Origin: Sphingobacteriales bacterium
GTDB taxonomy: Bacteria > Bacteroidota > Bacteroidia > Chitinophagales > Chitinophagaceae
Assembly: GCA_026391525.1 (NCBI GenBank)
Contig: JAPLEF010000060.1
Coordinates: 1-35,717, forward strand
DNA length: 35,717 nucleotides
Direction: 5' to 3'
Part shown: piece after piece, positions 7,110 through 35,705 of the stretch
How the letters are laid out: each line of letters begins with the position of its first letter
How positions within the stretch are numbered: the stretch's first letter is position 1
Made by a program: the position numbers and the translations under genes
Notes under the pieces: generated by a model
The model's input: only the letters and a program-made list of their open reading frames with translations
What the model was told of the DNA's origin: nothing
The model's database searches: none

Positions 7110-7428
7110 ACTGTTGATCTGTTTAATACTTTGGCGGCAAATTACGACTGCAATTTTAATTTCAGCTTTAAAGGATCTAACTAAATCGAGAGTTGCTGAA
7201 TATTTTACCCATTATTTAATTGCACTGTGCAGAAATTGATCCTCAGGATAGAATGCGTTCACTATAAGGCAAAATGGCTTTTTAGCTTATTGCCTACTTC
7301 ACTCAATATTTTTAAACGCAAAACAAGTAAAAACAATACAATTGGCTTTGAAAATTGAAAAATACGCTTTTTTTATAATCGATTTTGTCATTATATTTAC
7401 AGCAAAAATCAACCTAAAACAAAATGGC
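7110..7428. other. Divergent intergenic region between carboxylase beta and the secreted protease
   Basis: This 319-base AT-rich gap serves two divergent genes. I see no open frame with family resemblance, no RNA gene and no strong hairpin. On the plus strand TATATTTA at 7392-7399 is one base off the -7 consensus and lies 29 bases before the protease ATG, but lacks a good -33 element. On the carboxylase side only an imperfect box (GTAATTTG) is seen near 7137-7144. Confidence 0.5.
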
Positions 7429-10400: not shown

Positions 10401-11910
10401 GTGGCAGGTAAGTACAGATGGTGGTTTAACATATACCAACATAACCGGTGCAACAAATGCTACTTATGTAGTAACAGCAGATAACAGTTTAAATGGTTAT
10501 CTGTATAAAGTAATCATTACAAGTGCTTCATGCGCTACACCATCAACATCAAATGCTGCATTGCTAACTGTAAATGCCTTACCGGCAATTACTGCACAGC
10601 CTTCAAGTGCCACTTTATGTGCCGGAAGTAATGTTACTTTCTCTTCTGCTGCAACAGGTACAGGTATCAGTTACCAATGGCAATTAAGTACGAATGGAGG
10701 GGTTAGTTTCTCTCCTATCCCAGGGGCTACCAACCCTTCATATACTATTGTTGGAGCAACTGCTTCTCAATTCGGTTATCAGTATCAGGTTGTGGTTAAT
10801 GGTGTTTGTGCTCCGGCTGCAACTTCGTCTATTGCAACGCTTAACGTAATCAGTCCGGTTACAGTTACTTCCCAGCCTGCTGCTGCAGCAGTATGTGATG
10901 GAAGTAATACTACACTATCAGTTGCGGGCAGCGGTAGCGGTGTGTTGTATCAATGGCAGGTAAGCACAAACGGTGGTGCCAGCTATAGCAATATCGCCGG
11001 TGCTACAAATGCAACCTTGAACTTGAATGCCCTTACAACTGCTGCTAATGGTAACCTTTATCAGGTATTGCTTTCAAACAGTACTTGTACAAGTCCAACC
11101 ACTTCAAATACAGCCTTGCTCACAGTTAATGCACTTCCGAATGTAACCAGCGTTGCTTCAGAAACTAACGTTTGTACTGGCACACCGGTAACATTGACAG
11201 CTTCAGGTGCTACTACTTATAGTTGGGTACCAACCGGATTAACAGGATCAACTATCGTTGTTAACCCAACGGTTAATCCTGCTACTCCTTCATTACCCAA
11301 TACGATCACCTATGTTGTTACCGGTACAGATGGTAATGGTTGTGTAAACACCGACAATATCGCTGTTACCGCTAACCCGCTCCCTGTGGTAACTTTAACT
11401 GCCAATCCAAATATTGCGCTGTTACCTGGCCGCACGGTAACTTTAAGGGCAAGTGTTACTCCTTCAACCGGATTTACTTTTGTATGGAGGAAAAACGGAG
11501 TGATCATTCCGAATACTTCCGACAGTCTTGTAGTTACTGTTCAGGATGTTGGAGCATACACCGTTGAAGCTGCTGATGCAAACGGATTCTGCAACCGTAC
11601 TTCTGCAGAATTACTGGTTAGGGATTCTATTACCCCAACTGTTTTCCTATGGCCTAATCCAAACAATGGTAATTTCACCGTTTCTTATTACAACTACATC
11701 AGAAACGGCAATCAGATAAAAGAAAACAATATCACGATTTTCGACAGTCGTGGTGCAAGGATTTACAGTAAAACTTACAATGTAAACCAAGGTTATAATC
11801 TGATGGAAGTAAGGCTTAAAGGCCGTATCGCTAATGGAACCTATTTTGTGGTTTTACGCGACGGATATGGTAACAAGATTGCCTCTGCAGGATTTGTAGT
11901 ACATCAATAA
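7429..11910 (+). CDS. Secreted reprolysin-like metalloprotease with Ig-like repeats and T9SS sorting domain
   Basis: From the ATG at 7429 the protein is 1493 residues and starts with a clean signal peptide (MKKTLLLTVLCAFIVSIGFSQ). An upstream frame adds 29 codons without a signal, so this start is preferred. Residues about 200-420 form a metzincin zinc-protease domain: HEVGHQLGANH at 345-355 supplies three zinc ligands and Glu346, and TIMGYAG (Met377) is the Met-turn. A beta-rich region follows, then five tandem Ig-like repeats of 90-93 residues (about 780-1238), a degenerate sixth and another Ig-like domain, then a T9SS type A sorting domain from about 1404 (FLWPNPNNGNFTVSYYN). It should be exported through T9SS to the surface or medium. 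The substrate is unknown. Confidence 0.9.
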   Translation: MKKTLLLTVLCAFIVSIGFSQSDRFWSANSENPKNMQTDKAVARQTFPKTFKLFNLNIARLRDELNLVTNNRVRHTTVITLPNVAGELEEFEVVEASNFVPELQARFPEIRAFSGRGKTDKAATVKLSISPQGIQTMVFRHGRENEFMEPYSQDHNVYAVYVSQRDKGSLPWTCSTQDQQIFSGINAQIANTGRPLSNAGELKTMRLAQSCNGEYSNYFGAFNSTQVALVLAAYNATLTRCNGVYEEDLALHLNLIANTDLVIYYNPATDPYTTLANWNAQLQSTLNTVIGAANYDIGHMFGASGGGGNAGCIGCVCGAQKGSGITSPADGIPQGDNFDIDYVAHEVGHQLGANHTFSMNNENSGVNKEVGSGITIMGYAGITNQDVAPHSIDIFHEASIQQIQNNLATKACPITTNITAVNATPVVAPVANYTIPISTPFALTGSATDANAGDVLTYCWEQDDNGSAATTGNASVASPGKSTGPNWLTFNSSTNPVRTCPILPTILAGNFITPTLPGGDPIANIEALSSVGRNLKFRLTVRDNSPYSSTAPVKVGQTAFTDMTVTVTNTSGPFGVSQPNTAVSWQALTTQTVTWTVANTTNAPVSCSNVNILLSTDGGFTFPVTLVANTANDGTEDVIIPNSPTTTARIKVESVGNIFFDICNANFTILTPPTGFTFDSPAAANLTCAGAPSAAITLGTAAQGGFSTPINLTSAGNPAGTTVSFAPNPLTPGSSTVVTLNNTNTLAPGNYDITITGTAGTSVQTRILSFIVAPGTPPSITAQPADVAVCAGANAVFSVTSPSGSVTYQWQVSTDGGITYTNIAGAVASTYTVTPTLAENGYRYKVIVSAQCGSTTSNAALLSVNASPAISTQPASATVCAGSSNTFSVTGTGGGLTYQWQESTNGGTTFTNIAGATSATYVLSGITIAQNNNQYQVLINGSCPGTATSTAAILTVGNAPNITAQPTDIVACNGTSASFSATASGSNLSYQWQVSTDGGLTYTNITGATNATYVVTADNSLNGYLYKVIITSASCATPSTSNAALLTVNALPAITAQPSSATLCAGSNVTFSSAATGTGISYQWQLSTNGGVSFSPIPGATNPSYTIVGATASQFGYQYQVVVNGVCAPAATSSIATLNVISPVTVTSQPAAAAVCDGSNTTLSVAGSGSGVLYQWQVSTNGGASYSNIAGATNATLNLNALTTAANGNLYQVLLSNSTCTSPTTSNTALLTVNALPNVTSVASETNVCTGTPVTLTASGATTYSWVPTGLTGSTIVVNPTVNPATPSLPNTITYVVTGTDGNGCVNTDNIAVTANPLPVVTLTANPNIALLPGRTVTLRASVTPSTGFTFVWRKNGVIIPNTSDSLVVTVQDVGAYTVEAADANGFCNRTSAELLVRDSITPTVFLWPNPNNGNFTVSYYNYIRNGNQIKENNITIFDSRGARIYSKTYNVNQGYNLMEVRLKGRIANGTYFVVLRDGYGNKIASAGFVVHQ
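9766..11142 (+). repeat. Five tandem Ig-like repeat units inside the protease gene
   Basis: Units start at 9766, 10036, 10312, 10588 and 10864, with lengths 90, 92, 92, 92 and 93 codons. Each carries [IV]T.QP near the start, a Cys at about position 12, YQWQ[VLE]STNGG in the middle, an I.GAT..[TS]Y segment, a second Cys after [YL].V....., and an ALLTVNA-like end. Spacing of two Cys and a Trp matches an Ig/PKD-like sandwich. The DNA copies have diverged, so recent slippage is not evident. Confidence 0.85.
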
Positions 11911-12003: not shown

Positions 12004-13389
12004 ATGGCTACCTTTAAGAAGATGAATGCTTCAGTTTCACAAAAACGGTTCCCTGAAAAAACCGGATGGAAAGAACAACTATTTTCACCAGTTAGTAATA
12101 CCAATCTGGTTCTTTTCAGGATCATGTTCGGATTTCTGCTCGCCTGCCACTGCTTTTCACAAATACTAAACGGAACAGTAAAAAGCATATTTATTGAACC
12201 TCCTTTCACCTTCAATTTCATCGGGTTCGATTTTCTTCAACCCCTCCCAGGCAATGGTATGTATTATTATTTTACATTGATGGGTATCCTTGCATTGATG
12301 ATCATGACGGGAACATGGTACAAGATCAGCATGTTTTTGTTTGCCCTGATGTGGACTGCGGTATATCTGATGCAGAAATCCAATTATAACAATCATTATT
12401 ACCTTATGGTGTTGTTAAGTTGGATCATGCTTTTTCTACCAGCACATCAACGGCTTTCAGTGGATTCAATACGAAATAAATCGAACCGTAAAACATCCTG
12501 CCCCCGATGGGTTTATGGGTTGATGATTGCACAACTCTTTATAGTTTATACTTATGCCGGACTAGGCAAATTGAATATGGATTGGCTATCTGGCAGGTTC
12601 ATATCTATCCGATTTTCGAAACTGGCCATGCATAATATGCTCGGGATAATTTATGGTAACAGTGTTTTTCAGACTCTTGTCGCCTACAGCGGTTTGCTTT
12701 TCGATTTGCTGATTGTTCCATTGATGTGTTTCAAAAAAACAAGGCGGTTTGCATTCATTGCAGCAGTGATATTCCATCTCTTCAATTCCTATACATTCAG
12801 GATCGGCATTTTCCCTTATTTGTCGATAGCAATGCTGATATTCTTTTTCAAACCAATAAGGCTAAGATGGATAAGCGAAACTGAATTGTTATATGATCGA
12901 GGAAATAAAGTAAGCTCAAACCTTGAAAGTTTTATCATGTATGCCTTACTGTTATATCTCGTTATCCAGATATGGCTGCCTTTGAGAAGTCATTTATTTC
13001 AGGGTAATGTTTTTTGGACTGAAGAAGGATACCGGATGAGCTGGAGAATGATGCTGAGAACAAAATCGGGATCGGTTTTGTTCAGGGTGAAAGATGCTGC
13101 ATCTGGAAAGGAATGGCAGATCGACCCTTCGATGCATTTCAAACCAGTTCACCTGATGTGGCTTTCCGGGTCGCCTGATATCATCTGGCAATATGCCCAA
13201 CGGATCAAAAAAGCGTATAAGCGTAAAGGCTATCCTGATGTGGAAGTGTATGCCATCGGTAAGGTAAGTATGAACCGTTACCAAGCCCAGCCTCTCATAG
13301 ATCCCAACTGTAATCTGGCCGCAGAAAGATGGCAACTGTTCGGGCACAGCAAATGGATATTGCCTTTCATCGCAAAAGAAAAAGAATAA
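12004..13389 (+). CDS. Vitamin K-dependent gamma-carboxylase-like membrane protein (HTTM domain)
   Basis: This 461-residue multi-pass protein resembles the HTTM/vitamin K-dependent gamma-glutamyl carboxylase family. The segment SNYNNHYYL (His131) matches the NNH..L site of the human enzyme, LSVDS follows, and YAGLGKLNMDWL at 184-195 matches its AGIKKLDADW site, where the second lysine is the catalytic base; the equivalent here is Lys189. After the membrane part, GYRMSWRMM near 343 and the following beta-rich segment also resemble the eukaryotic enzyme's C-terminal region, so this is more than the membrane domain. Bacterial members are of uncertain function and the substrate is unknown. The gene follows the protease terminator, so it is probably transcribed independently. 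Confidence 0.8.
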   Translation: MATFKKMNASVSQKRFPEKTGWKEQLFSPVSNTNLVLFRIMFGFLLACHCFSQILNGTVKSIFIEPPFTFNFIGFDFLQPLPGNGMYYYFTLMGILALMIMTGTWYKISMFLFALMWTAVYLMQKSNYNNHYYLMVLLSWIMLFLPAHQRLSVDSIRNKSNRKTSCPRWVYGLMIAQLFIVYTYAGLGKLNMDWLSGRFISIRFSKLAMHNMLGIIYGNSVFQTLVAYSGLLFDLLIVPLMCFKKTRRFAFIAAVIFHLFNSYTFRIGIFPYLSIAMLIFFFKPIRLRWISETELLYDRGNKVSSNLESFIMYALLLYLVIQIWLPLRSHLFQGNVFWTEEGYRMSWRMMLRTKSGSVLFRVKDAASGKEWQIDPSMHFKPVHLMWLSGSPDIIWQYAQRIKKAYKRKGYPDVEVYAIGKVSMNRYQAQPLIDPNCNLAAERWQLFGHSKWILPFIAKEKE

Positions 13390-23311: not shown

Positions 23312-24808
23312 TTAATTTACTTTAAAGCTTTCAAGGGCATTGGCGATTTGGCGGTCGTTCGATAATCGGGCCACTTTATTTTGCCCTCCCAGTTTTCCAA
23401 CGCTCTTCATATAATCTACAAAACCGTTCCTGCGTATAGGAGTTATTTTCAATGGTTCAAGGATATTGCCTTTGATCAGGTCGTCGTAATATACATTCTT
23501 CAGACGGAGCATTTCGTTTAGTTCCTCAGCGAATTCAGGCAAAGTATCCGGGTCTTTTTCAAACTCGATAAACCATTCGTGATAACTTTTTCCCTGCTGC
23601 GAACTCACAAATGGAGCAACCGTAAATTCAGTGATAGTGATGCGATGCTTTCCGGCAGCGGCCAGGATAGCAGCTTCCACTTCTTCTACAATTACATGTT
23701 CCCCAAAAGCAGAAATGAAATGCTTGGTTCTACCGGTAACCAATAAACGATATGGATTGACCGATACGAATTTCACCGTATCTCCTATATCATAAGCCCA
23801 TAAACCGGCGTTGCTGCTGATGATCATGGCATAATTCACCTGTACTTCCACGTCGCGGAGCATAAGCCTTTCGGGGTTCGGTTTACCAAGTTGGTCAACC
23901 GGAATGAACTCGAAGAAAATTCCGCTATTGCTGTTGAGCAGTAATCCGGGTGTTTCCTGCGAATCCTGAAAGGCGAAAAAGCCTTCTGATGCGGGGAACA
24001 GTTCAATGGTATCGATAGTGCGGCCAATGCTTTCCGTTAGTTTCGCTTGATAAGGTTCATAGTTTACGCCACCCTGCACCATCACACTGAAATTGGGAAA
24101 GAGTTCCCCGATTTTTTTTCCTGATTTTTCTATGAGCCTGTCGAAGTACATCTGCATCCATGGCGGAATACCGCTGATCAATGTCATGTTTTCATGAATG
24201 GTTTCTGCAACGATCTTATCTAATTTCTGTTCCCAATCTTCAATGCAGTTGGTTTCGTAGGAAGGCAGCTGGTTTGCCCTCAGGTATTTGGGCACATGAT
24301 GGTTTACGATGCCGCTCAAACGGCCTGTTGGAATGCCGGCAACTCTTTCCAATTCAGGGGAACCGCTAAGGAAAATCAACTTTCCATTGGCAAACTGGGT
24401 ATTGCCTGTTTCGGCCATATAACAGAGCAATGCATTTCGTGCCGTATTGATATGATTAGGGATGGAATCGCGTGTGATTGGTATATATTTCACCCCACTG
24501 GTGGTACCGCTTGTTTTGGCGAAGTAAATAGGCACCCCTTTCCATAGCACATTATGTTTCCCTTCCTTAATTTTTTCGATATAAGGGCGTAGTGCTTCAT
24601 AATCCCGAACCGGTACCTGTTTTACAAATTCTTCGTAACCCTTTATTTTCTCAAAGCCGTGTTCTTGTCCGAATACTGTTTTCTGAGCACCCTTCAACAA
24701 TTGTTGTAGTAACTGTTGCTGATCAGCTACCGCAGTTAACATGTTCTTTTTAGTTTGCCGGTATATATAATTGGCAAATGGTTTTGCCAAAAAAGATTTT
24801 ATTTTCAT
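23312..24808 (-). CDS. GH3 family acyl-adenylating/amide-forming enzyme
   Basis: The 498-residue protein belongs to the GH3 family, relatives of ANL adenylating enzymes that in plants join amino acids to acyl hormones. The ATP-binding motif YFAKTSGTTSGVKYIPIT spans about 95-112, with LFPASEGFFAFQD near 266-278 and YDIGDTVKFVSVNPYRLLVTGR near 340-361 as the nucleotide-binding elements (the first five and last five residues suffice to find it). Bacterial substrates are mostly unknown, so an acid-amine ligase role is inferred. A -7 box lies before the start, and a DUF4258 gene precedes it by 61 bases. Confidence 0.85.
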   Translation of the reverse strand: MKIKSFLAKPFANYIYRQTKKNMLTAVADQQQLLQQLLKGAQKTVFGQEHGFEKIKGYEEFVKQVPVRDYEALRPYIEKIKEGKHNVLWKGVPIYFAKTSGTTSGVKYIPITRDSIPNHINTARNALLCYMAETGNTQFANGKLIFLSGSPELERVAGIPTGRLSGIVNHHVPKYLRANQLPSYETNCIEDWEQKLDKIVAETIHENMTLISGIPPWMQMYFDRLIEKSGKKIGELFPNFSVMVQGGVNYEPYQAKLTESIGRTIDTIELFPASEGFFAFQDSQETPGLLLNSNSGIFFEFIPVDQLGKPNPERLMLRDVEVQVNYAMIISSNAGLWAYDIGDTVKFVSVNPYRLLVTGRTKHFISAFGEHVIVEEVEAAILAAAGKHRITITEFTVAPFVSSQQGKSYHEWFIEFEKDPDTLPEFAEELNEMLRLKNVYYDDLIKGNILEPLKITPIRRNGFVDYMKSVGKLGGQNKVARLSNDRQIANALESFKVN

Positions 24809-25412: not shown

Positions 25413-26681
25413 ATGCATAAAACAGTTGCTTTACATACGCTGGGTTGTAAGCTGAATTTCAGCGAAACCACTGCCATAGGCAGGATGCTGGAGCAGGAGG
25501 GCTTTAAACAGAGGACGTTTGAAGAGGTAGCAGATTATTATGTAATCAATACTTGTTCAGTTACTGAAAATGCAGATAAGGAATGCCGGCAACTGGTTCG
25601 GCGTATTCAACGTAAAGCCCCTGAAGCGATGGTAGTGATCACCGGTTGTTATGCCCAGTTGAAACCAGCAGAGATCGCTTCCATTCCGGGAGTGAACCTT
25701 GTACTGGGTGCTGCTGAGAAATTCAATATCAGCAGCCACCTTAAAACGCTCAGACCAAACGATCCGGCTAAAATATGCAGTTGCGATATTGGGGATGTTC
25801 ATGAATTTAAGGCATCACATTCTGTTCATGAACGCACGAGGGTATTTTTAAAAGTTCAGGATGGTTGCGACTACAACTGCAGTTTTTGTACGATACCCCT
25901 GGCCCGGGGAAAAAGCCGGAGCGACGCCATTGAAAATGTGTTGGAAAAGGTTGCTGAAATAGCAAAGGAAGGTGCTAAAGAAGTGGTATTGACCGGTATC
26001 AACCTGGGAGACTTCGGTCGCGGACTTTCAGGAGGAAAGAAAAAGGAAGAAGATTTCTTTTCGCTGATCGGGGCCTTAGATGCTTTTGAAGGAATAGAAC
26101 GCTATAGGATATCATCCATCGAACCCAACCTGCTTTCGGATGAAATGATCGCATTCATTGCTCAAAGCAAACATTTTATGCCGCATTTCCATATCCCTTT
26201 GCAAAGCGGATGCAATCAAACCTTATCGGATATGCGCCGGCGCTATAAAATCGAATTGTATGCAGATAAGGTAGCGCTGATCAAAAAACTCATGCCGCAT
26301 GCAGGTATCGGCGCTGATATGATTGTAGGGTTCCCGGGAGAAACTGATGAACATTTTGCAGCATCGGCAAATTTTATCGCATCACTCGATATCTCTTATC
26401 TGCATGTATTCACTTACTCCGAACGGAGCAATACACAAGCCCTGGAAATCAAACCTGTTGTTCCGATATCGTTGAGGCATGAACGTAACAAAATCCTCCG
26501 CACCCTTAGCTTTAATAAGATGCAGGCCTTTGTAGAAAAGAACTCAGGCGCTGTTCGCCCGGTACTTTTTGAATCAGTAAATAAAAATGGGATGATGGAA
26601 GGCTACAGCGATAACTATATCAAGATCGCAGCGCCTTTCAGGAAAGAGTGGGAAAATGGCATCGTGAACTGGACCATCTGA
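25413..26681 (+). CDS. mtaB: tRNA t6A37 methylthiotransferase MtaB
   Basis: The 422-residue radical-SAM enzyme adds a methylthio group to t6A37, making ms2t6A. The N-terminal UPF0004 domain holds the auxiliary-cluster cysteines C12 (TLGCKLN), C48 (INTCSVTE) and C79 (ITGCYAQ). The radical SAM cysteines are C152, C156 and C159 (CDYNCSFC). IPLARGKSRS and DMIVGFPGETDEHF follow, with a short TRAM-like C-terminus (about 375-420). It works downstream of TsaD, which is also in this window but in a separate operon. Confidence 0.93.
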   Translation: MHKTVALHTLGCKLNFSETTAIGRMLEQEGFKQRTFEEVADYYVINTCSVTENADKECRQLVRRIQRKAPEAMVVITGCYAQLKPAEIASIPGVNLVLGAAEKFNISSHLKTLRPNDPAKICSCDIGDVHEFKASHSVHERTRVFLKVQDGCDYNCSFCTIPLARGKSRSDAIENVLEKVAEIAKEGAKEVVLTGINLGDFGRGLSGGKKKEEDFFSLIGALDAFEGIERYRISSIEPNLLSDEMIAFIAQSKHFMPHFHIPLQSGCNQTLSDMRRRYKIELYADKVALIKKLMPHAGIGADMIVGFPGETDEHFAASANFIASLDISYLHVFTYSERSNTQALEIKPVVPISLRHERNKILRTLSFNKMQAFVEKNSGAVRPVLFESVNKNGMMEGYSDNYIKIAAPFRKEWENGIVNWTI

Positions 26682-26691
26682 TCCTTCTAAT

Positions 26692-27429
26692 CTAAATTAT
26701 GGTATTCCACGATTTACCGAAGAGGTGTTTTCTGAATATTTTCTTGCTATTAGCATCTGAAAGGGCCGCTAGGTGCCGTTCATGATGTATATCGGTTCCA
26801 AGAAAACTATACAAGTCTTCTTTAAGAAGGTAATTCGCAACTTTAGCGGCATCTTTCCCATAGTAACCGGTAACCGACAAAAGATTGAGTTGCAGTTTGA
26901 AACCCAATTCAACAAGATGATGAAAAACCTTATAGTTATTATAGTAGTAAGGATATCTTTCAGGATGGGCAAGTACCGGCTGATAGCCAGCCATGATGAT
27001 GGCAAAACTATATTTACCGGGTTCATCAGGCATCGAGGCATAGGAAAATTCCGTTAAAAGCAATTTATCCCTCAAGGTGAGTAATGGATTGCCGCTATTC
27101 AGCAATTCGAAAAAGTAACTATCCAGCATGTATTCTGCAGCAGTATGCAATTCAAAATCCATTTGTTCTTTTTTCAATGCTATTTGCAACTCACTTTTTG
27201 CTGCAGCAATAGTTGCAGGAGTATTCCGGTACATATCACTGATGATATGTGGTGTTGCAATTGATTTAGTAATTCCTAATGCCATCAACCCTTTGATAAG
27301 GCTAATAGAAGTAGCTACATCCGGTGATCCGTCATCTATTCCCGGCAGGATATGAGAATGCATATCTGTACTGATAGGAAAAAAAGAATCTGACTCCGGT
27401 TGACTTTTTTTTTGAAAGAGCGAGAACAT
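26692..27429 (-). CDS. CpsB/YwqE-like PHP-fold tyrosine phosphatase
   Basis: The 245-residue protein has the PHP metallophosphatase pattern: DMHSHILPGIDDG at 22-34, ATPHIISDMY, an EY pair near 107, AHPERYPYYY and GTDIHHERHL. The CpsB/YwqE family dephosphorylates bacterial tyrosine kinases that control capsule and exopolysaccharide length. It is the last gene of the polysaccharide run, 20 bases after a GT2 gene, and ends 10 bases from the convergent mtaB. No Wzc/BY-kinase is present, so its substrate must be coded elsewhere. Confidence 0.88.
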   Translation of the reverse strand: MFSLFQKKSQPESDSFFPISTDMHSHILPGIDDGSPDVATSISLIKGLMALGITKSIATPHIISDMYRNTPATIAAAKSELQIALKKEQMDFELHTAAEYMLDSYFFELLNSGNPLLTLRDKLLLTEFSYASMPDEPGKYSFAIIMAGYQPVLAHPERYPYYYNNYKVFHHLVELGFKLQLNLLSVTGYYGKDAAKVANYLLKEDLYSFLGTDIHHERHLAALSDANSKKIFRKHLFGKSWNTII

Positions 27430-27449
27430 TTTATCCGAAATGAAGTGGG

Positions 27450-28202
27450 TTACTTTTTGTAATATTGTGGTAATTTGCTCAACGGCTTTAAAATGGATAC
27501 CAGAAATGCAAGTGGAATCTTATTGCGTTTCATGGCCAGGTAATCGCGGCGGTTTGCCCTTAACCTGATTCTTAAATTACTGTTGCTTTGTCCGCCCCGG
27601 CGCATCTTGACAATAAGTTTCGGCAGATAATACGATGAAATCCTGAACCGGTAAAGATACCTTGCCATGAATTCGTAATCGGCAGCACTGTAATAATGGG
27701 TTTCATATCCGCCACATTTCCCAATTAATTCCCTTTTGAAATAGAAGGTTGGATGTGCCGGCATCCAACCCATGCGGAACAAGCTTCTTTTGTATGGTTT
27801 CCCTTTCCAGATCCGGTAAATCTTGTTCGTATCATCCGGGTCTACATATTCCAGATCGCCATAAATACTATCTACTTTTTTTTCTTCAAAGCTGGCTACA
27901 ACGGCTTCAATAACATCATTACTAGCCAGCATATCGTCACTATTAAGGATGCCGACGATATCGCCGGTTGCCATGGCCATTCCTTTATTGATGGCATCAT
28001 ACATCCCACGGTCGGTTTCGGAAACCCATTTTGCAACATGGGCTTCATACTTTCGGATAATGTTTACAGTTTGATCGGTGGATTTTCCATCGATGATGAT
28101 CAGTTCGATGTTTTTATAACGCTGTGATATGATCGATTGAAGGCAACCTTCCAGATATTTTTCTGAATTATACGTTGCCGTTATTAGCGTCACTTTCATC
28201 AT
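27450..28202 (-). CDS. GT2 family glycosyltransferase
   Basis: With ATG at 28202 (a second ATG follows at once) the protein is 250 residues. A longer open frame begins at TTG 28226, but ATG gives the standard opening MMKVTLITATYNSEKYL. GT-A motifs are IIIDGKSTDQT at 36-46, VSETDRGMYDAINKG and ILNSDD at 85-90 for the metal and nucleotide sugar. It resembles WcaA/WcaE-type transferases that extend exopolysaccharide repeat units on the inner face of the membrane. Donor and acceptor are unknown. It lies between carbamoyltransferase and CpsB-like genes. Confidence 0.88.
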   Translation of the reverse strand: MMKVTLITATYNSEKYLEGCLQSIISQRYKNIELIIIDGKSTDQTVNIIRKYEAHVAKWVSETDRGMYDAINKGMAMATGDIVGILNSDDMLASNDVIEAVVASFEEKKVDSIYGDLEYVDPDDTNKIYRIWKGKPYKRSLFRMGWMPAHPTFYFKRELIGKCGGYETHYYSAADYEFMARYLYRFRISSYYLPKLIVKMRRGGQSNSNLRIRLRANRRDYLAMKRNKIPLAFLVSILKPLSKLPQYYKK

Positions 28203-28263
28203 ATCCGGTTTTCTTTTCCACCACAATAATAAAGTTTATTCGCTAATTGCTGCCGAAAGGAGT

Positions 28264-29994
28264 TTATTTTCTTGATACAACGATGTTTTCCATCACCAGC
28301 ATATCCATTTGAGTTCGGAGAAAACAGTCGATGGCTTCTTCAGGCCGGTTTACGATCGGTTCATTTTCATTGAAAGAAGTATTGAGCAGAATTGGCACTC
28401 CTGTTTTGTTATAGAATGCTTCGATAAGTGCATAATAACGAGGAGAAACCAACCGGTCTACGGTTTGCAGCCGACCAGTTCCGTCAACATGGGTGACTGC
28501 GGGAATGATGTCCTGCTTCTCTTTTCGGATTGGAAATACTTTTTCCATGAAAGGCACAGGCTCATCCAGTTCAAAATAGTCAGCTACATGTTCTTTAAGT
28601 ATGGATGGGGCGAATGGGCGGAAGCTTTCCCTGCGCTTGATCTTGCCATTCAGTAAGGCTTTCGCATCTGAACGTCTGGGATCGGCAATGATTGACCTTC
28701 CACCAAGGGCTCGCGGACCGAATTCGGCTCGTCCGCTCATCCATCCTACCACACCGCCGCCAATCAGACATTCCGTAACCTTGTCATAGAGCTGTGCATC
28801 TTCCATTTGGGTGAATGCGATGCTTTTCTCCTGCAGCACTGCCGCAATCTCTTCATTGGTATAACGGCTACCAGTATACGCCGAATAGATGGGTTCCTGC
28901 CTGGGCACTTTCAACAACTGATGCTGCACATAAAGCGCTGCACCCATCGAAATGCCGGCATCATGGCCTGCTGAAGGGATATATACTTCCCTGAAACCGG
29001 TATTTCTGGTGATCTTTCCATTTGCCACACTGTTTTGGGCAACGCCGCCTGCTATGCACACCCGGGAAAGACCTGTCTTCCTGTGCAGATGGTTAAGCAA
29101 ATGAAAGAGTACTTCTTCCGTCATACGCTGCACCGAGGCAGCCAGATCCATATGATGTTGCGAAAGTGGCTCATCCTTTGCCCTTTGCTTGCCAAATTTA
29201 TCCGCCATGACTTCGCTGAACATTGGTGCAACCATCGGAATATGATCATCGCCGTAAGAAATTACACCGGATGTGCCCTTACGGAAATAATCCAGATCAA
29301 GTTTAAACAATCCATCATCGGTAAGTTTTACCACATCATGTAATAAATTAAGGTATTTGGGTTGGCCATAAGGTGCCATCCCCATCACTTTATATTCATC
29401 ACCATAATGCGGAAACCCGAGCAATTGCGTAAAAGCGGTATAAAATATCCCGATTGAATGAGGAAAATCAACCGATTGTAAAACGGTGATATCATTGCCC
29501 CTACCCGTTGCAGTCATAGTAGTGCTGAAATCACCGGAGCCGTCGATCGACAAACAAGCTGCCTCTTCAAAAGGAGATGCGAAGAACGCGGATGCCAGGT
29601 GGCTGCGGTGGTGTTCAATATTCTTCACTTTATCTGCAAAACTTGCTTCAGGCAGTGAAGATAAAATCGAAAGTTCCTTTTCAATTGAAGCTACTTTCTT
29701 ACTATTGTTCAGTCTGTCGCGGATCACAGCCAAGCTTCCTGAAGGGTTAGCGGCCAGATATTTTAGTTTACTGAATAGCTTTGCCTTAGGATCCCTGCCG
29801 ATAGCAAAGTAATCTACATCAGCGTAGGAAACACCTGCTTCCTGCAAACAAAAAGCGATGGCTAAAGTTGGGAAGCCTGCCCAATGTTTAACCCTGCGGA
29901 ATCTTTCTTCCTCGATGGCTGCAATCATTTTACCATCCACGAATATTGCCGCAGACGAATCGGCATGATAGGCATTGATTCCAATTATGATCAT
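28264..29994 (-). CDS. NodU/TobZ family O-carbamoyltransferase
   Basis: The 576-residue enzyme transfers a carbamoyl group from carbamoyl phosphate, via carbamoyl adenylate, to a hydroxyl on a sugar or natural product. The N-terminal Kae1-like domain opens IIGINAYHADSSAAIF and has the metal-binding HHRSHLASAF (H128, H129, H132) and SIDGSGDFSTT at 149-159. GGVAQNSVANGK follows, and the C-terminal domain starts near AEFGPRALGGRSIIADPR and ends with ILLNTSFNENEPIV. Length is typical. Its place in the polysaccharide run suggests glycan carbamoylation, which is inference. Confidence 0.92.
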   Translation of the reverse strand: MIIIGINAYHADSSAAIFVDGKMIAAIEEERFRRVKHWAGFPTLAIAFCLQEAGVSYADVDYFAIGRDPKAKLFSKLKYLAANPSGSLAVIRDRLNNSKKVASIEKELSILSSLPEASFADKVKNIEHHRSHLASAFFASPFEEAACLSIDGSGDFSTTMTATGRGNDITVLQSVDFPHSIGIFYTAFTQLLGFPHYGDEYKVMGMAPYGQPKYLNLLHDVVKLTDDGLFKLDLDYFRKGTSGVISYGDDHIPMVAPMFSEVMADKFGKQRAKDEPLSQHHMDLAASVQRMTEEVLFHLLNHLHRKTGLSRVCIAGGVAQNSVANGKITRNTGFREVYIPSAGHDAGISMGAALYVQHQLLKVPRQEPIYSAYTGSRYTNEEIAAVLQEKSIAFTQMEDAQLYDKVTECLIGGGVVGWMSGRAEFGPRALGGRSIIADPRRSDAKALLNGKIKRRESFRPFAPSILKEHVADYFELDEPVPFMEKVFPIRKEKQDIIPAVTHVDGTGRLQTVDRLVSPRYYALIEAFYNKTGVPILLNTSFNENEPIVNRPEEAIDCFLRTQMDMLVMENIVVSRK

Positions 29995-30004
29995 CAGTTT
30001 ACTA

Positions 30005-30030
30005 AAGGTTTAACGTTTAAGGTTTAACGT
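30005..30030. repeat. Two-copy 12-base direct repeat between exosortase and carbamoyltransferase genes
   Basis: AAGGTTTAACGT occurs at 30005-30016 and again at 30019-30030 with two bases between, so the period is 14. It fills most of the 47-base gap between the exosortase stop and the carbamoyltransferase start. Confidence 0.7.
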
Positions 30031-30041
30031 GAGTACAAGGA

Positions 30042-30596
30042 TTACGAAGCTCTTATCCCGTTTCTTTTCTCAAAAGCCCAGATCATGAGTGCTATTGCTG
30101 TATAAGCAACAATATTAAACCAGGTATGATGATCCCATCCCAGAGGCATTTTCCAACCTTTATTGATAGCCACTAAAAACAATCCGATCCGAAGTTGGTT
30201 AATGGTATAGAGAAGCAATAACCCGAATATGATCCATATCAATTTACGTTTCCAGGATTGCTGATAAGCCAGCATCAGCGCAGCCCAGAAACTATACACT
30301 CCGTACCCTACACAATCAAATGCAATGATCACCCCTCTTTTACCAACCACCCTCACCAAATATCCTGGTTCTTCAATGGTATCGTAACCAAACCAGGATG
30401 CCACAAATGCAGCCCCTTTCATTAATAATTTCTTGATCCAACTTATATAATCCAGATGTTGCTCAACAAAGGGACTGTATAAACCGCCCGGAGCAGCTAA
30501 ACCAATCCAGAACTGAGTGCCTAAATAGAATACCAAAAAAAGAGCCAGAAAGGTTAATAGGAAACGGATGAATTGCTTATCGTTATACCAGCTCAT
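30042..30596 (-). CDS. Exosortase/archaeosortase family protein (XrtY-like)
   Basis: The 184-residue integral membrane protein has about five hydrophobic segments and the exosortase catalytic set: Cys95 in AFDCVGYGVYSFW, Arg136 in NQLRIGLF and His156/His157 in WDHHTWFN. Exosortases are transpeptidase-like enzymes that cleave a C-terminal sorting signal and pass the protein to a surface glycan pathway. The length fits the short Bacteroidota exosortases. The neighbouring glycosyltransferase and Wzy-like genes resemble what I recall of the XrtY group. The start codon is ATG, 3 bases after the upstream gene's stop. No sorting-signal substrate was found in the window. Confidence 0.82.
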   Translation of the reverse strand: MSWYNDKQFIRFLLTFLALFLVFYLGTQFWIGLAAPGGLYSPFVEQHLDYISWIKKLLMKGAAFVASWFGYDTIEEPGYLVRVVGKRGVIIAFDCVGYGVYSFWAALMLAYQQSWKRKLIWIIFGLLLLYTINQLRIGLFLVAINKGWKMPLGWDHHTWFNIVAYTAIALMIWAFEKRNGIRAS

Positions 30597-30599
30597 GTA

Positions 30600-31721
30600 T
30601 CAGTTTGATGAAAGGGAGAATAATTTGGAATACGACAAATCGATTTCCTTTGTGTTTATTCTATTGGCAGCATAAGCTATTGCTGATTCACAACTTTTAT
30701 CGTATTCATCCTGATTCATTTTCCCAAAAAATAAAATAGCCTCTTTGATTGCCTTTACAGTCAAATCGGAATTGATACCTGCCTGAGCGGCTTCCAGATC
30801 GTTCCAGGGTGTAAAACGGCTGGTGATCACTGGCCGCCCTGCATTAAGGGCTCCCAGTAACGCATGTCCGAAATTTTCGCTCTTACTCGGCAAGATAAAA
30901 ACATGAGATTGAAGTAATGGAATCTCTAACTTTTCCGGTGGCAATTCACCTTCGTATTGCACTTTGATATTTACGGGCAATTTATTTATAGCTTCCTTAC
31001 ATTGCTGCCAATAATTGACATCCTTTATGGGGCCACAAATTTTGTACTCCACTATAAGTTCAATCTGTTGCAGCGCCTCTATGATGAGTAGATGATTTTT
31101 CATGGCACTGATCAACGCGATACTCACGAGGTTAATCATACCCGGCATTTTTGCGGCTACCGGTAAGGGTTTGGTTATGGCAGGATAATTACCGGCAATT
31201 GCAATGGTTACTTTATCGCCCATTTCCTGCCTGATATATTGGGCTTCAGTAACGTCTGTAGCATGGAAAACAACTTTTGCGGGAATACCTAAACTTTTCA
31301 TCAGCAATAGGTATATTTTCTTTTTAAAAGATTTCTGCGACAATGCGCCGGGATGCAACATCCCACGGACTGATATGATTTTTTTGGCAGCTGTTGAATA
31401 CAACACCGGGTAGATAGTGAAATTAAGATCATATAATCCGATACAAAAAAGGATAGTTGGCTGAACCTCTTTTAGTATAGTTCTTAACTGGTTTCTTCGG
31501 CCACTTGATTTGGCATACCAAACCTTAGTATTGCTACAGTAATCTACCCATTGGCTTTCGGGAACGGTTAAACTGATTCCATTAAGATCGGTATTTCCAC
31601 AGTAGATATAAAATCTGGAATCTCCAGGAAACTGCTTAACGAGATTGGCAATCGACTGTATCGGTCCGCCTGCCCTGAAAGCCGGATGAAACCAGGGTAT
31701 GCAAATCAATACTTTTGTCAA
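30600..31721 (-). CDS. GT4-type glycosyltransferase, possibly the exosortase-associated XYAG1 type
   Basis: The 373-residue GT-B enzyme opens KVLICIPWFHPAFRAGGPIQSI, of which RAGGPIQSIANLV is the donor-side glycine-rich loop typical of family 4. SVRGMLHPGALSQK (117-130) and SKSENFGHALLG (279-290) follow. The last motif is normally E-x7-E; here the first Glu is E282 but the second position is Gly290, a notable change. The start is TTG 31721 preceded by AAAGG, which may act as a weak ribosome site. It lies 3 bases upstream of the exosortase and 13 bases after the MBOAT gene. Donor sugar is unknown; association with an XrtY-type exosortase is from memory of that group. Confidence 0.82.
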   Translation of the reverse strand: MTKVLICIPWFHPAFRAGGPIQSIANLVKQFPGDSRFYIYCGNTDLNGISLTVPESQWVDYCSNTKVWYAKSSGRRNQLRTILKEVQPTILFCIGLYDLNFTIYPVLYSTAAKKIISVRGMLHPGALSQKSFKKKIYLLLMKSLGIPAKVVFHATDVTEAQYIRQEMGDKVTIAIAGNYPAITKPLPVAAKMPGMINLVSIALISAMKNHLLIIEALQQIELIVEYKICGPIKDVNYWQQCKEAINKLPVNIKVQYEGELPPEKLEIPLLQSHVFILPSKSENFGHALLGALNAGRPVITSRFTPWNDLEAAQAGINSDLTVKAIKEAILFFGKMNQDEYDKSCESAIAYAANRINTKEIDLSYSKLFSLSSN

Positions 31722-31734
31722 CCTTTGTTACTGA

Positions 31735-33189
31735 TTAAAATTGAAAATAAATAAACTGGCTGATCGGCCGAAGGAAAATAACTACCAATGCAACTGCAAC
31801 AGAAAGCGCAATCGTATCTAATATTGAACCTACTACCCATTTATTCAAGATGGGTTTCACTACTTCAATCCAGCAGTAGGTTAGCAGCATCAGCACCAAT
31901 AATAAAAAAGTAATCAGGTAACAATTTTCCCTTAAACCAAGCCATGTATATTGCGATGGATGAACCAGTTTTGATGCATAATGACCAAGGTCATGTAAAT
32001 TGGTTGTACGGAATGGAATCCATCCCAACATCAGCAGTGGTAATGAAATACACCAACCCATAAAATTCCTGAATTGATGATTGATGTTTTTGAAAAAATG
32101 AAGAGACAACCGATGCATCGTTACTAGAATGGCATGGTACAAACCCCAGATCACAAAGGTCCAACTAGCCCCATGCCAGAAACCCATGATGGCCCAGGTT
32201 AAAAATAATGCCATATAACCTTTAATCGTGTAACTGTGCCTGATTTCGGAAATGGCCTCAGGTTTGCTGTGCAGCATTTTTTGTCCGGTTAAAGGCAAAT
32301 AGAGATAATCCCTGATCCAGTTGGAAAGGGTGATATGCCAGCGTTTCCAAAAAGCTTTTGGCGAAACCGCCAGATAAGGGAAATTGAAATTTTCCGGGAA
32401 ATGGATTCCCATCATTTTCGCACTGCCAATAGCAATATGGGAGTAGGCACAAAAATCGAAGTAAATTTGAAAGCCGAATAGAAAGGATAAGGTCCAAACA
32501 TCTACTGCACTAACATCATTTGTTGGAAGTGCGAAGCCCTGATCAACAAGAGGTGCGATATTATCTGCCAACACCACTTTAAGAAACAATCCAATCAAAA
32601 CCCTCCTGAAACCTTCAACCAGAAAATCGACTTTGAAAGCCTGCCTTCCTGCCAATTGAGGAAGGATTTCGGCTGCACGAAGGATAGGGCCTGCAATAAG
32701 ATGTGGAAAGTAAACCAGAAAAGTAAGGTACCTGATGAAATTCCTTTCCGGCTTGATATGTCTGCGGTAAACATCAACCGTATAACTGATGGTTTCAAAA
32801 GTATAAAAACTGATTCCGATGGGCAATATGATTTTAAGAGATGGAAGAATGGATACATGCAAACCGAGCATGTTCAAAATTCCTTCAAGGTTGTCGGTGA
32901 AGAAAATCAGGTACTTAAAATAAAAAAGGATGGCAAGGTTTAACCCGACGCTCAGTATCAGCCAACGTTTACGCTTTATGGGATTTTCATGCCGGTCGAT
33001 TTCAATGGAAACAAAAAAATCGAGCAATGCGGCAAACAGCAACAATAAAATGTAAACCGGTTTCCAGAAGCCGTAAAATACAAGGCTCATCAAACACAGC
33101 ATCCAACTGCGGTACTTGCCCGGCAAAAACCAATACAGCAAAACTACCAATGGCAGAAATATGAGGAATGTGATCGAGTTGAAAATCAA
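31735..33189 (-). CDS. MBOAT family O-acyltransferase (AlgI/DltB-like)
   Basis: The 484-residue multi-pass protein has the MBOAT core: FPHLIAGPILRAAEILPQL near 161, FDFCAYSHIAIGSAKMMG near 245, WKRWHITLSNWIRDYLYLPL with H285, and GFWHGASWTF with the catalytic-type H339. Family members acylate polysaccharides or teichoic acids across the membrane. The gene starts at TTG 33189, because an in-frame TAA lies just two codons upstream, and it follows an SGNH-type gene by 3 bases. That pairing is the AlgI/AlgJ-AlgX or DltB/DltD arrangement, so it probably acetylates the glycan made by this locus. Confidence 0.92.
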   Translation of the reverse strand: MIFNSITFLIFLPLVVLLYWFLPGKYRSWMLCLMSLVFYGFWKPVYILLLLFAALLDFFVSIEIDRHENPIKRKRWLILSVGLNLAILFYFKYLIFFTDNLEGILNMLGLHVSILPSLKIILPIGISFYTFETISYTVDVYRRHIKPERNFIRYLTFLVYFPHLIAGPILRAAEILPQLAGRQAFKVDFLVEGFRRVLIGLFLKVVLADNIAPLVDQGFALPTNDVSAVDVWTLSFLFGFQIYFDFCAYSHIAIGSAKMMGIHFPENFNFPYLAVSPKAFWKRWHITLSNWIRDYLYLPLTGQKMLHSKPEAISEIRHSYTIKGYMALFLTWAIMGFWHGASWTFVIWGLYHAILVTMHRLSLHFFKNINHQFRNFMGWCISLPLLMLGWIPFRTTNLHDLGHYASKLVHPSQYTWLGLRENCYLITFLLLVLMLLTYCWIEVVKPILNKWVVGSILDTIALSVAVALVVIFLRPISQFIYFQF

Positions 33190-33192
33190 AAC

Positions 33193-34335
33193 TTAAAGTA
33201 GAGAAACAAAATGATGAAAAATGGTATCAGCAACTAAGCGGTGGCCTTCCTGTTGAAAATGCATGTAATCAAGTTGCTCATTCACCGAACCCTCCTGCGC
33301 GTTGATTAGCCTGTCCCAATACTGATTAGGCACTACCTTTTCAAGATCAAGAAAATGGGCACCTGTTTTTAAACATTCCTTTCTGAGTTCCATTTTAAAT
33401 TCTTTATACAAATCCGATTCATAAGGGATAGGCGCATCATTCCGTAATGGAGGAATATAAACCGTTAGTCGTATTTGCTTATTGTTGCAGAAATCAAGGA
33501 TATGGTGGAATGCCAGCAAATTGGCCCGATATCTTCCAGGAATCATTTTACGTATGGTAGTGGCATCAATACCCATCATCCGGTTTCTCACATTATACAA
33601 AGTATTGAAAAAATTCCCCCGCATATCGGCCCTTTTTTCCCAGGTGTTAAACCAGGCTGAGGCTTTCGTATTCAGAAAACGTTCGGTTTTTTCCTGGGTT
33701 GTTTCTTTGATGCCTTCAAAATCGGGCGAAACCTGTTCTTTGGGAGTTAACTCGGTTTTTTCAGCTGTTAATGCTTCAAAGCTTGTTAAGCCGGAAACAA
33801 ATGCTTTTTGTGTTCGGCAAATTTCTTTGAGTTCATCGGTTTGGAGAATGGTACGTAAGCCATCTTCCCTCAGATCGTCGTAAAAAAGCGGAATCAGTAC
33901 ATCCTTTACCGCAAGTTTTTTACTGACTAAAAGCAAAGTGGCTAGTAATTCCTGCAGGTTGGCATTGGGATAACTAACGCCTACCACTTCCCTGTTTAAG
34001 GATTGAAGGCTATCCCACAACATGCCCACGGCATTCTGCTGCCCCTTTTGGTATAGATTGATTCCATGCAGTTGCGAATTGCCCAGCCAAAGGATGGTAT
34101 GCCTGGACCCTCTCATTTTCCAGCCCTGCACGAGGGTATCAACATAAGCCGGATTCATGATATGAATAGGGAAATCGCCACGCTTGGGTTTGAATGCTAT
34201 AGTTCGTTTACCCAGCCCTATTTCTGCAGAAGCTCTTATGCGGTCTTTGTAAAGTACAAGCAGAAAACAACCCAATATAACGGGAAGCAATACCTGAAAA
34301 AAAAACCGATATCGATGAAGAAATGACAAAATCAA
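33193..34335 (-). CDS. Membrane-anchored SGNH-type protein (DltD/AlgJ-like partner of MBOAT)
   Basis: The 380-residue protein has one N-terminal membrane segment (about 12-28) and a large extracytoplasmic domain. WLGNSQLHGIN at 83-93 resembles SGNH block I with candidate nucleophile Ser87, and DYMHFQQEGHRLV near 356-368 carries the Asp356-x-x-His359 pair of block V. Hence it is an esterase/transferase-like fold that probably completes acyl transfer to the glycan with the MBOAT protein. It starts at TTG 34335, 2 bases after the Wzy-like gene's stop. I do not recognise a more specific family name. Confidence 0.7.
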   Translation of the reverse strand: MILSFLHRYRFFFQVLLPVILGCFLLVLYKDRIRASAEIGLGKRTIAFKPKRGDFPIHIMNPAYVDTLVQGWKMRGSRHTILWLGNSQLHGINLYQKGQQNAVGMLWDSLQSLNREVVGVSYPNANLQELLATLLLVSKKLAVKDVLIPLFYDDLREDGLRTILQTDELKEICRTQKAFVSGLTSFEALTAEKTELTPKEQVSPDFEGIKETTQEKTERFLNTKASAWFNTWEKRADMRGNFFNTLYNVRNRMMGIDATTIRKMIPGRYRANLLAFHHILDFCNNKQIRLTVYIPPLRNDAPIPYESDLYKEFKMELRKECLKTGAHFLDLEKVVPNQYWDRLINAQEGSVNEQLDYMHFQQEGHRLVADTIFHHFVSLL

Positions 34336-34337
34336 AA

Positions 34338-35705
34338 TTATTCCTGCGGTATGAACCGATAATGCGTTGGGGTAACTTTAAACACATGATTCCAAATCTG
34401 AATCATTACAAAGATAAGGAAACAGGATTTGATGAGATGTCCGAGTATGGTTTGCAATTCACAATCTGGTCGAATCGGGAAATAAAAAACCATGGCAGTA
34501 AATAGGATAAGAATAGGATAATCGGGACTGAAATAATTGAATGCTTTCAACACTTCACTGAAAAACATACCATAAAGCAGCATGAACAGGGCGCCACCAA
34601 CCACTCCGAAATTGATGTAAGCATCTCCTACCGAAGACAACCCCATCGAAGTGCCCTCTGCTAAGGGCATACCCGAATATTTCATAAAAAAATCTCTGTC
34701 TCCTGCATTGAGTTTATTGGGGGCCAGTATCCTTGGCATGATCGCAGCTTCAAAAATCTGTGCCATTTCCTCACCTTTTGCAAAAGGAACGCGTGCAGGA
34801 ATATTGCTCATAATATTGGTAATGATAAAACCCTGATTGATCCTTACATTACTAGTACCAAGTTTCTCCATACTAAAGAACCCTGATTTTGATTTACTTT
34901 CTTCAACTGTTTTTTGAAGGGTTTCGAGCCCAGTTTCTTCCCCACCCTTCCATGTGGCTTCACGGTAATCACCCTTTACCAACTGAATGGTAATTGCAAG
35001 TAGTATAAACCCGAATGTAACGATTGCTTTTAACTGTACTGTTGGTTTATACTTTATGGCCAGTACAGAACCCAAAAATACCAGCCAGGTAAGCAGATCA
35101 TGAAACATAGCATTTCCTAGTGAAGAAGCAATAACGGATCCGTATACAAGAAATAAAAATAACGGTCGGAGTTTTGTACCACTTAGTATAATTAAGAATG
35201 TTCCAATGAATTTGAAACAAGCCAGTAAAGTGAATACAAAACCTAATTCAGCACCAAATAATCCGGATACGAAACTTGATACAAAACCGATCCCAATAAA
35301 AAAATAAGGCAGTTTGGGATTCTCTTTTACAAATCGCTTTATTTTCTCCAGATCAACCACTTCGCCTTCCAGCATACCTGCCCTTATATGTAGGCCTAAG
35401 ATGAAACAGATCACTGCAGGTATCACGTAAAGGAAATATTGCTCTTCTGGTATCTGCATTTTCAGGAAGCCACGCTGGTATTGATCCAAACCATTGTATG
35501 CCAATGTTGGTCCAACGAACATTTGCAGACACATAAAAGATCCAAGCAAATAGCGCACTGGTATTACTGATCCTATTGAATAAAACAACAGCAGGAATTG
35601 AAAAGCTGAAATCATTATTGCCGTATAAGAATACCAGCTAATCTCCGGGAACAACAAACGGGAGAAAATCATCAGGCACAAATAAAGGCCCCAATTAATC
35701 TTCAC
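34338..35705 (-). CDS. Wzy/EpsG-like polysaccharide polymerase membrane protein
   Basis: The 455-residue protein has about ten to twelve hydrophobic segments and one large loop at about 245-350. The loop holds KGDYREATWKGGEE and NVRINQGFIITNIM, followed by PNKLNAGDRDFFMKYSGMPL, and the next segment (SVGDAYINFGVVGGALFMLLYG) is typical of Wzy-type polymerases. It resembles the Wzy-like protein I recall beside XrtY exosortases. The assumed start is GTG 35705. The frame remains open to the window edge (35717), so the true N-terminus could lie outside. It would polymerise undecaprenyl-linked repeat units on the outer side of the inner membrane. Confidence 0.75.
   Translation of the reverse strand: MKINWGLYLCLMIFSRLLFPEISWYSYTAIMISAFQFLLLFYSIGSVIPVRYLLGSFMCLQMFVGPTLAYNGLDQYQRGFLKMQIPEEQYFLYVIPAVICFILGLHIRAGMLEGEVVDLEKIKRFVKENPKLPYFFIGIGFVSSFVSGLFGAELGFVFTLLACFKFIGTFLIILSGTKLRPLFLFLVYGSVIASSLGNAMFHDLLTWLVFLGSVLAIKYKPTVQLKAIVTFGFILLAITIQLVKGDYREATWKGGEETGLETLQKTVEESKSKSGFFSMEKLGTSNVRINQGFIITNIMSNIPARVPFAKGEEMAQIFEAAIMPRILAPNKLNAGDRDFFMKYSGMPLAEGTSMGLSSVGDAYINFGVVGGALFMLLYGMFFSEVLKAFNYFSPDYPILILFTAMVFYFPIRPDCELQTILGHLIKSCFLIFVMIQIWNHVFKVTPTHYRFIPQE

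Follow-up and report, generated by a model that had tools for sequence, protein, structure and literature searches.

A Chitinophagaceae exopolysaccharide locus with an XrtY-like exosortase, and a PID-CTERM mini-peptide as its probable substrate

We analyzed contig JAPLEF010000060.1 (C53) of the Sphingobacteriales bacterium assembly GCA_026391525.1, a member of the Chitinophagaceae, the host group anticipated in a preliminary description of this DNA. The window referred to throughout is this entire contig of 35717 bases; its genome is G000, and C, L, and G numbers denote contigs, loci, and genomes. Eight open reading frames (ORFs), one of which encodes an exosortase, lie head to tail on the minus strand between 26692 and 35705, separated in coordinate order by 20, 37, 47, 3, 13, 3, and 2 bases. 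The eight families named in the preliminary description are present on one strand (the SGNH protein matching Pfam weakly and the Wzy-like protein matching no family model), and the gaps, which it had given as 2 to 61 bases, are indeed short, with a measured range of 2–47 bases. The genes are as follows.

26692..27429, minus strand: CpsB/CapC-like tyrosine phosphatase, the final gene of the locus (PF19567, E 2.4e-43)
27450..28226, minus strand: GT2 glycosyltransferase (PF00535, 8e-28)
28264..29994, minus strand: predicted O-carbamoyltransferase (PF02543, 2.5e-64, 218.3 bits; PF16861, 2.2e-68, 229.5 bits)
30042..30596, minus strand: XrtY-like exosortase (NF046083, 139.7 bits, cut-off 160; PF09721 and TIGR04178 over cut-off)
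30600..31721, minus strand: GT4 glycosyltransferase, the commonest exosortase neighbor (PF00534, 6.9e-15; XYAG1, 70.7 bits, cut-off 400)
31735..33189, minus strand: MBOAT membrane O-acyltransferase of the AlgI/DltB type (PF03062, 3e-21)
33193..34335, minus strand: SGNH-type protein (weak Pfam GDSL match; GNSQ and DxMH blocks conserved)
34338..35705, minus strand: putative Wzy-like polysaccharide polymerase, named from position and topology, its 5′ end probably lying beyond the contig edge

The Wzy-like ORF is open to the contig edge, where it reads SLFKVKINW, and its relatives read M..LF..K.NW; translation therefore probably begins beyond the window and not at the GTG at 35705, and the locus is probably cut. 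Because the contig ends inside this gene, the window contains no more than the final part of an exopolysaccharide (EPS) cluster, represented by these eight genes. At its 3′ end the locus stands tail to tail with a plus-strand radical SAM gene of the MiaB/MtaB kind (25413–26681; PF00919/PF04055).

The exosortase is a membrane protein of 184 residues that, on its family matches, belongs to the exosortase/archaeosortase superfamily (PF09721, 27.6 bits, cut-off 25.7; TIGR04178, 44.8 bits, cut-off 23). Cys95, Arg136, and His156/157 are invariant across 20 aligned exosortase sequences, and we take Cys95, Arg136, and His156 to be the catalytic residues. The structural model of the protein has a predicted local distance difference test (pLDDT) score of 91.0 and returned no Protein Data Bank match at E ≤ 0.001. 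It is the single exosortase detected in G000 (TIGR04178, E ≤ 0.01). The best NCBIfam class is XrtY (NF046083), at 139.7 bits under a cut-off of 160, and the next is XrtX at 69.4 bits (cut-off 170). The preliminary description had pointed to the XrtY class; XrtY is indeed nearest, but full membership is rejected on this score, on the 70.7 of 400 bits that the GT4 protein reaches for XYAG1 (NF046085), and on the lack of a match between the Wzy-like protein and the XrtY-associated Wzy model (NF046084). We thus use the label XrtY-like rather than XrtY for the exosortase, and the locus is a diverged relative of the NCBIfam XrtY-type EPS loci.

A contig scan with a seven-sequence alignment and one peptide pattern around the His motif yielded 50 exosortase loci, which by record title comprise 39 from Chitinophagaceae genera or bins, five from Mucilaginibacter, and six from bins named Bacteroidota, Bacteroidetes, or Chitinophagales. 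With the window and the whole-genome locus L034 added and L113 removed, in which no exosortase frame was called, the set holds 51 loci; an EPS-type locus is one with a GT4, GT2, or Wzy-like gene of the window families (more than 60 bits) on the same strand within six genes of the exosortase. Glycan genes accompany the exosortase in 33 of these 51 related loci, so that the outcome named in the preliminary description as speaking against its proposal, an absence of exosortase–glycan linkage in related genomes, is not what we find. Counting the window, the 33 EPS-type loci hold GT4 in 31, GT2 in 26, the carbamoyltransferase in 20, the Wzy-like protein in 19, CpsB in 18, SGNH in 4, and MBOAT in 4, all of them lower bounds because some contigs are short; some rows of the set are near copies (L064 and L066). 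The order that recurs places the exosortase with GT4, the carbamoyltransferase or a WcaF-type acetyltransferase, GT2, and CpsB. The SGNH–MBOAT pair, which the preliminary description had included in the system, is present in the window and is an occasional add-on (4/33).

One position beside the exosortase alternates between two enzymes. In the 33 EPS-type loci it holds the carbamoyltransferase 20 times, an acetyltransferase of ~180 residues 11 times, both in no case, and neither twice (L079, L112); the acetyltransferase of L065, the one tested, falls in the WcaF family (223.5 bits, cut-off 192). Carbamoyltransferase and WcaF-type acetyltransferase are mutually exclusive alternatives in one slot, an exclusivity that concerns these two families near the exosortase, as other hexapeptide transferases occur elsewhere in the clusters. 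When three Mucilaginibacter loci are added, 34 loci hold one enzyme or the other. The best exosortase tree needs nine changes between the carbamoyl and acetyl states; judged against 500 shuffles, the carbamoyl label is more clustered on the tree (1 shuffle as low) and the acetyl label is not (136 as low), and the window and its closest tree neighbor, L071, differ in their slot enzyme. The carbamoyltransferase, whose activity the preliminary description had singled out in the combination, is thus recurrent without being a defining partner. Among solved structures, the carbamoyltransferase is related to decarbamoylnovobiocin carbamoyltransferase (9s2t, E 6e-96), GdmN, and TobZ, enzymes that act on hydroxyls of small molecules. 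With both its N- and C-terminal Carbam_trans domains matched, the window protein fits an O-carbamoyltransferase of the NodU/TobZ/NovN type, with transfer to a sugar predicted. The carbamoyl/acetyl swap suggests a fixed modification point on the glycan.

The Wzy-like protein matches no Pfam or NCBIfam model. Aligned with 16 relatives it shows 43 invariant columns, and a fold search with its AlphaFold2 model (pLDDT 85.3) gave no clear match; position and topology suggest a role as polymerase. Upstream of GT4 in other loci are different Wzy-like clusters that match NF046084 or, weakly, TIGR04370/PF14296, and the corresponding protein of L101 (Mucilaginibacter) is a full NCBIfam 'exosortase Y-associated Wzy-like protein' (735.7 bits, cut-off 420). 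The MBOAT protein scores as a family member, and its solved relative is DltB (6bug, E 4.1e-29). The adjoining SGNH protein falls under the Pfam cut-off (E 0.026; 15.5 bits, cut-off 32.9), and a G-N-S-Q block and a D-x-M-H block, presumably the SGNH blocks, are kept in all four sequences compared, the window's included. On these motifs it is a probable periplasmic O-acyltransferase partner of the MBOAT protein.

PID-CTERM signals go with XrtX and XrtY exosortases. One match to the PID-CTERM model (NF046080) scores over cut-off in G000 (contig C93, 72–140, minus strand; 37.7 bits, cut-off 26), so the genome holds a PID-CTERM protein, as an XrtY/XrtX system calls for; three further matches at E ≤ 10 are all under cut-off, and PEP-CTERM (PF07589) has no match over cut-off in G000 (best 14.1 bits, cut-off 20.7). 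Read from its ATG, the C93 frame yields a product of ~70 residues that begins like a signal peptide and continues with QSDPGCDPLDPACPIDGG, followed by a hydrophobic helix and a basic end. The length of the mature peptide, ~16–25 residues, is an estimate, since the site of signal cleavage was assigned with a crude rule and visual inspection. This mini-protein, encoded outside the window, is the probable substrate of the exosortase. The preliminary description had the system attach proteins to the glycan, a proposal that narrows to this one tiny peptide, whose attachment we infer.

Several lines of comparison bear on the pairing. Among 147 genomes of the family, PID-CTERM matches (E ≤ 0.1) occur in 39 of the 43 with an exosortase match (E ≤ 0.001) versus 23 of the 104 without (Fisher p 4.5e-15), a count that ignores kinship and admits weak matches of both kinds; PID-CTERM is over cut-off in 46 of the 147. 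Twenty-six genomes, behind 26 of the 50 loci and picked by hand, mostly for glycan-type loci on longer contigs, include 22 with PID-CTERM matches over cut-off and 24 at E ≤ 0.1. In 12 of the 26, the PID gene shares contig and strand with the exosortase and lies 21.8–60.9 kb upstream of it; at least 22 kb of contig is available upstream of the exosortase in 20, among which the 12 linked cases fall. Two stand-alone exosortase relatives adjoin a gene whose product has a C-terminus resembling PID-CTERM, at 23.8 and 13.6 bits (cut-off 26). In addition, at least 12 of 37 exosortase matches sit within 1 kb of a PID gene (G138, G004, G098, G066, G077 (two), G028, G094, G136 (three), and G050), and no window-family glycan gene of more than 60 bits lies near the exosortase in the 10 of these 12 whose surroundings were examined, which points to a second arrangement of this pairing, one without glycan genes. 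Given these close pairs, the match of enzyme and signal does not depend on glycan loci alone, and we consider it well supported.

The PID gene appears to mark the head of the EPS cluster. Wza–Wzc genes are the next same-strand genes after it in 14 of 32 PID loci, 13 detected by script and L206 by reading; the script pattern failed to pick up the PID frame in three loci (L206, L209, and L210), of which L206 and L210 were read by eye. Opposite-strand frames are called between PID and Wza–Wzc in L151, L186, and L197. Wza–Wzc is then usually followed by a NusG-like gene and often by an asparagine-synthase-like gene. In G034, of the same genus, the PID head runs for 23.5 kb on one strand into Wzy-like, exosortase, GT4, SGNH, MBOAT, and carbamoyltransferase genes. 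The full layout is also seen in a cultured relative, Ferruginibacter sp. HRS2-29 (L067/G148), where PID–Wza–Wzc stands 31.6 kb upstream and the slot enzyme is the carbamoyltransferase; Ginsengibacter hankyongi (L065) is an example of the WcaF type. In G000, the PID gene is the last on contig C93, and C125 opens, in the right orientation, with a Wza–Wzc set: a Wza-like gene, a Wzc gene whose product shares 68% identity with the L199 protein, a gene resembling GDP-fucose synthase (490.7 bits, cut-off 500), a member of the asparagine synthase family, GT4, and ABC export genes judged by resemblance to those of L149. C93 and C125 share no end overlap, so that we infer their join, and with it a single cluster in G000 formed by the PID gene, the Wza–Wzc contig, and the window. 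The asparagine-synthase-family gene of C125 (L219:4366-6159) scores 331 bits with the XrtA/PEP-CTERM amidotransferase model TIGR03108 (cut-off 817); its product could supply the acceptor by making an amidated sugar. Two further Wzc-like genes of G000, in L220 (C68) and L221 (C121), are 39% and 30% identical to that of L199 and lie near what appear to be other polysaccharide genes.

The peptides and their surroundings have features in common. Eleven of the 14 Wza-linked PID peptides have at least two cysteines before the signal, one directly before P-I-D or P-V-D; among the other 17 scored, G000's included, eight have at least two cysteines and five have one directly before. In 8 of 14 relatives, inspection by eye shows a hairpin with a T run after the PID gene, and C93 ends inside a hairpin. 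This terminator-like element suggests a separate peptide transcript; a single simple transcript may therefore not span the entire cluster. Upstream of PID, at most 150 bases away, a same-strand gene of more than 300 residues is found in 19 of 31 rows, and all 10 upstream-protein tails tested, G000's included, carry the type IX secretion system (T9SS) type A domain (TIGR04183; 26.2–40.3 bits, cut-off 23). The G000 protein directly upstream has 3359 residues and a T9SS type A tail (L148:301-10380, C93). Such a neighbor is common but not constant, since a flippase gene precedes PID in G034. T9SS-tailed proteins also precede PID where no Wza–Wzc follows, for example in L184, L187, L202, and L205.

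We favor, with moderate confidence, a model in which the exosortase has one main substrate, the PID mini-peptide encoded at the cluster head before Wza–Wzc, which it cleaves and attaches to the decorated glycan or to the lipid carrying that glycan. With each enzyme taking the step usual for its family, glycosyltransferases would assemble the repeat unit in the cytoplasm, where the carbamoyltransferase, or elsewhere the WcaF-type acetyltransferase, would block one hydroxyl. The unit would be flipped and then polymerized by the Wzy-like protein, and SGNH–MBOAT would add O-acyl groups in the periplasm, at the outer face of the inner membrane. The substrate layout would be a signal peptide, ~16–25 residues with two cysteines, P-I-D-G-G, a membrane helix, and a basic tail; the exosortase would cut before the helix and join the new C-terminus to glycan or lipid carrier, and the polymer would exit via Wza bearing a peptide end that may serve as cap or anchor. 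We consider unlikely the more specific form of this model, a one-enzyme, one-substrate system in which the exosortase joins a disulfide-capable CDPLDPACPIDGG-class mini-peptide to its own cluster's carbamoylated or acetylated glycan, giving a polysaccharide whose peptide end is held by the neighboring giant type IX secretion protein, tying capsule to adhesin.

Several observations weigh against the favored model. Wza–Wzc is absent from the stretch seen in 18 of 32 PID loci, some because the contig ends, and in G000 itself the missing overlap between C93 and C125 counts here, as does the neglect of kinship in the cross-genome count. No PID match was found in two of the 26 genomes (G167, G170), and two more have sub-threshold matches only (G147, G169). 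Despite room upstream, PID is unlinked in 8 of 20 genomes (G154, G163, G165–G170), which include both Segetibacter and all four Mucilaginibacter genomes; the PID gene of G154 heads Wza–Wzc on a contig other than the exosortase's. Finally, excerpts of PMC1569441 report that disruption of EpsH in Methylobacillus left methanolan production unaffected, so glycan synthesis as such need not depend on an exosortase, though those of PMC11072679 report that EpsH loss lowered EPS in Methylomonas LW13.

The strongest rival, which we regard as somewhat unlikely, holds that PID is processed but joined to a membrane lipid or released, the glycan genes being neighbors through shared regulation or surface function. 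The glycan-free exosortase–PID pairs fit it, and the title of PMC7157517 speaks of lipid-anchored archaeosortase substrates; against it stand the 33 of 51 loci in which this exosortase subgroup has glycan genes and the 14 of 32 in which PID precedes Wza–Wzc. That the exosortase has other, unrecognized substrates, with the PID-CTERM peptide incidental, strikes us as distinctly unlikely: signals may be too diverged for the NCBIfam model, as the four genomes lacking a match over cut-off (G147, G169, G167, G170) would allow, but the cross-genome pairing (39/43 versus 23/104, kinship ignored) and the repeated linkage argue otherwise. Very improbable is an ordinary Wzy-type EPS locus with the exosortase a passenger of no bearing on the glycan, for which speak the standard families of most of the glycan genes and the 15 of 51 related exosortases labeled as without glycan neighbors (a few on short contigs or in Mucilaginibacter loci with other glycan genes), and against which speak the presence of GT4 no more than six genes from the exosortase in 31 of 33 loci and the repeated order with carbamoyltransferase or WcaF-type enzyme, GT2, and CpsB.

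The favored model has parallels in known systems. Like the NCBIfam XrtY system (NF046083, NF046084, NF046085, NF046080), G000 has an XrtY-nearest exosortase, Wzy-like and GT4 neighbors, and PID-CTERM in the genome, whereas the window exosortase, GT4, and Wzy-like proteins are all under the curated cut-offs; the names of the XrtY models mention neither the WcaF/carbamoyl slot nor CpsB nor the two-cysteine peptide, a distinction by names only. The XrtA/PEP-CTERM EPS system likewise has genes for EPS export and for an amidotransferase resembling asparagine synthase alongside its exosortase (in L219, TIGR03108 as above and a Wza-like match to TIGR03027 at 70 bits, cut-off 180); in contrast, G000 has no PEP-CTERM over cut-off and one tiny recognized substrate. 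In the excerpted text of PMC12188702, the cyanoexosortase CrtB/hormogonium polysaccharide locus also sets an exosortase with Wza, Wzc, and Wzy homologs, and its authors propose that exosortase cargo is possibly linked to polysaccharide; it differs in having several PEP-CTERM cargo proteins and in belonging to cyanobacteria. Published cargo-to-polysaccharide models of this kind share the logic of ours, for larger cargo. XrtF of Flavobacterium johnsoniae, as excerpts of PMC10936215 present it, is a Bacteroidota exosortase with an adjacent partner gene, needed for surface colonization and biofilm, but is of another class (window protein 33.4, cut-off 90).

The acceptor of exosortase cargo is a general question; an excerpt of PMC7468200 describes it as an unidentified compound and places asparagine-synthase genes beside exosortases. 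Given that G000 has one detected exosortase, one recognized cargo of ~70 residues, and a matching EPS cluster, a peptide–glycan product can be sought directly. Within the body of papers searched, we found no description of PID-CTERM, of XrtY exosortases, or of an exosortase with a carbamoyltransferase. As far as we are aware, three features appear to be new: a mini-peptide encoded at the head of the cluster, the alternation of acetyl- and carbamoyltransferase, and the T9SS-tailed protein that is a frequent neighbor.

Elsewhere in the window, the plus strand encodes a reprolysin-like metalloprotease of 1522 residues with PKD and Ig-like domains (7342–11910) and a protein with HTTM and vitamin-K-dependent gamma-carboxylase lumenal domains (12004–13389; PF05090, PF22777). 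On the minus strand, 23312–24808 encodes a GH3-family protein that scores 402 bits with the lyso-ornithine lipid synthetase model OlsH (cut-off 620).

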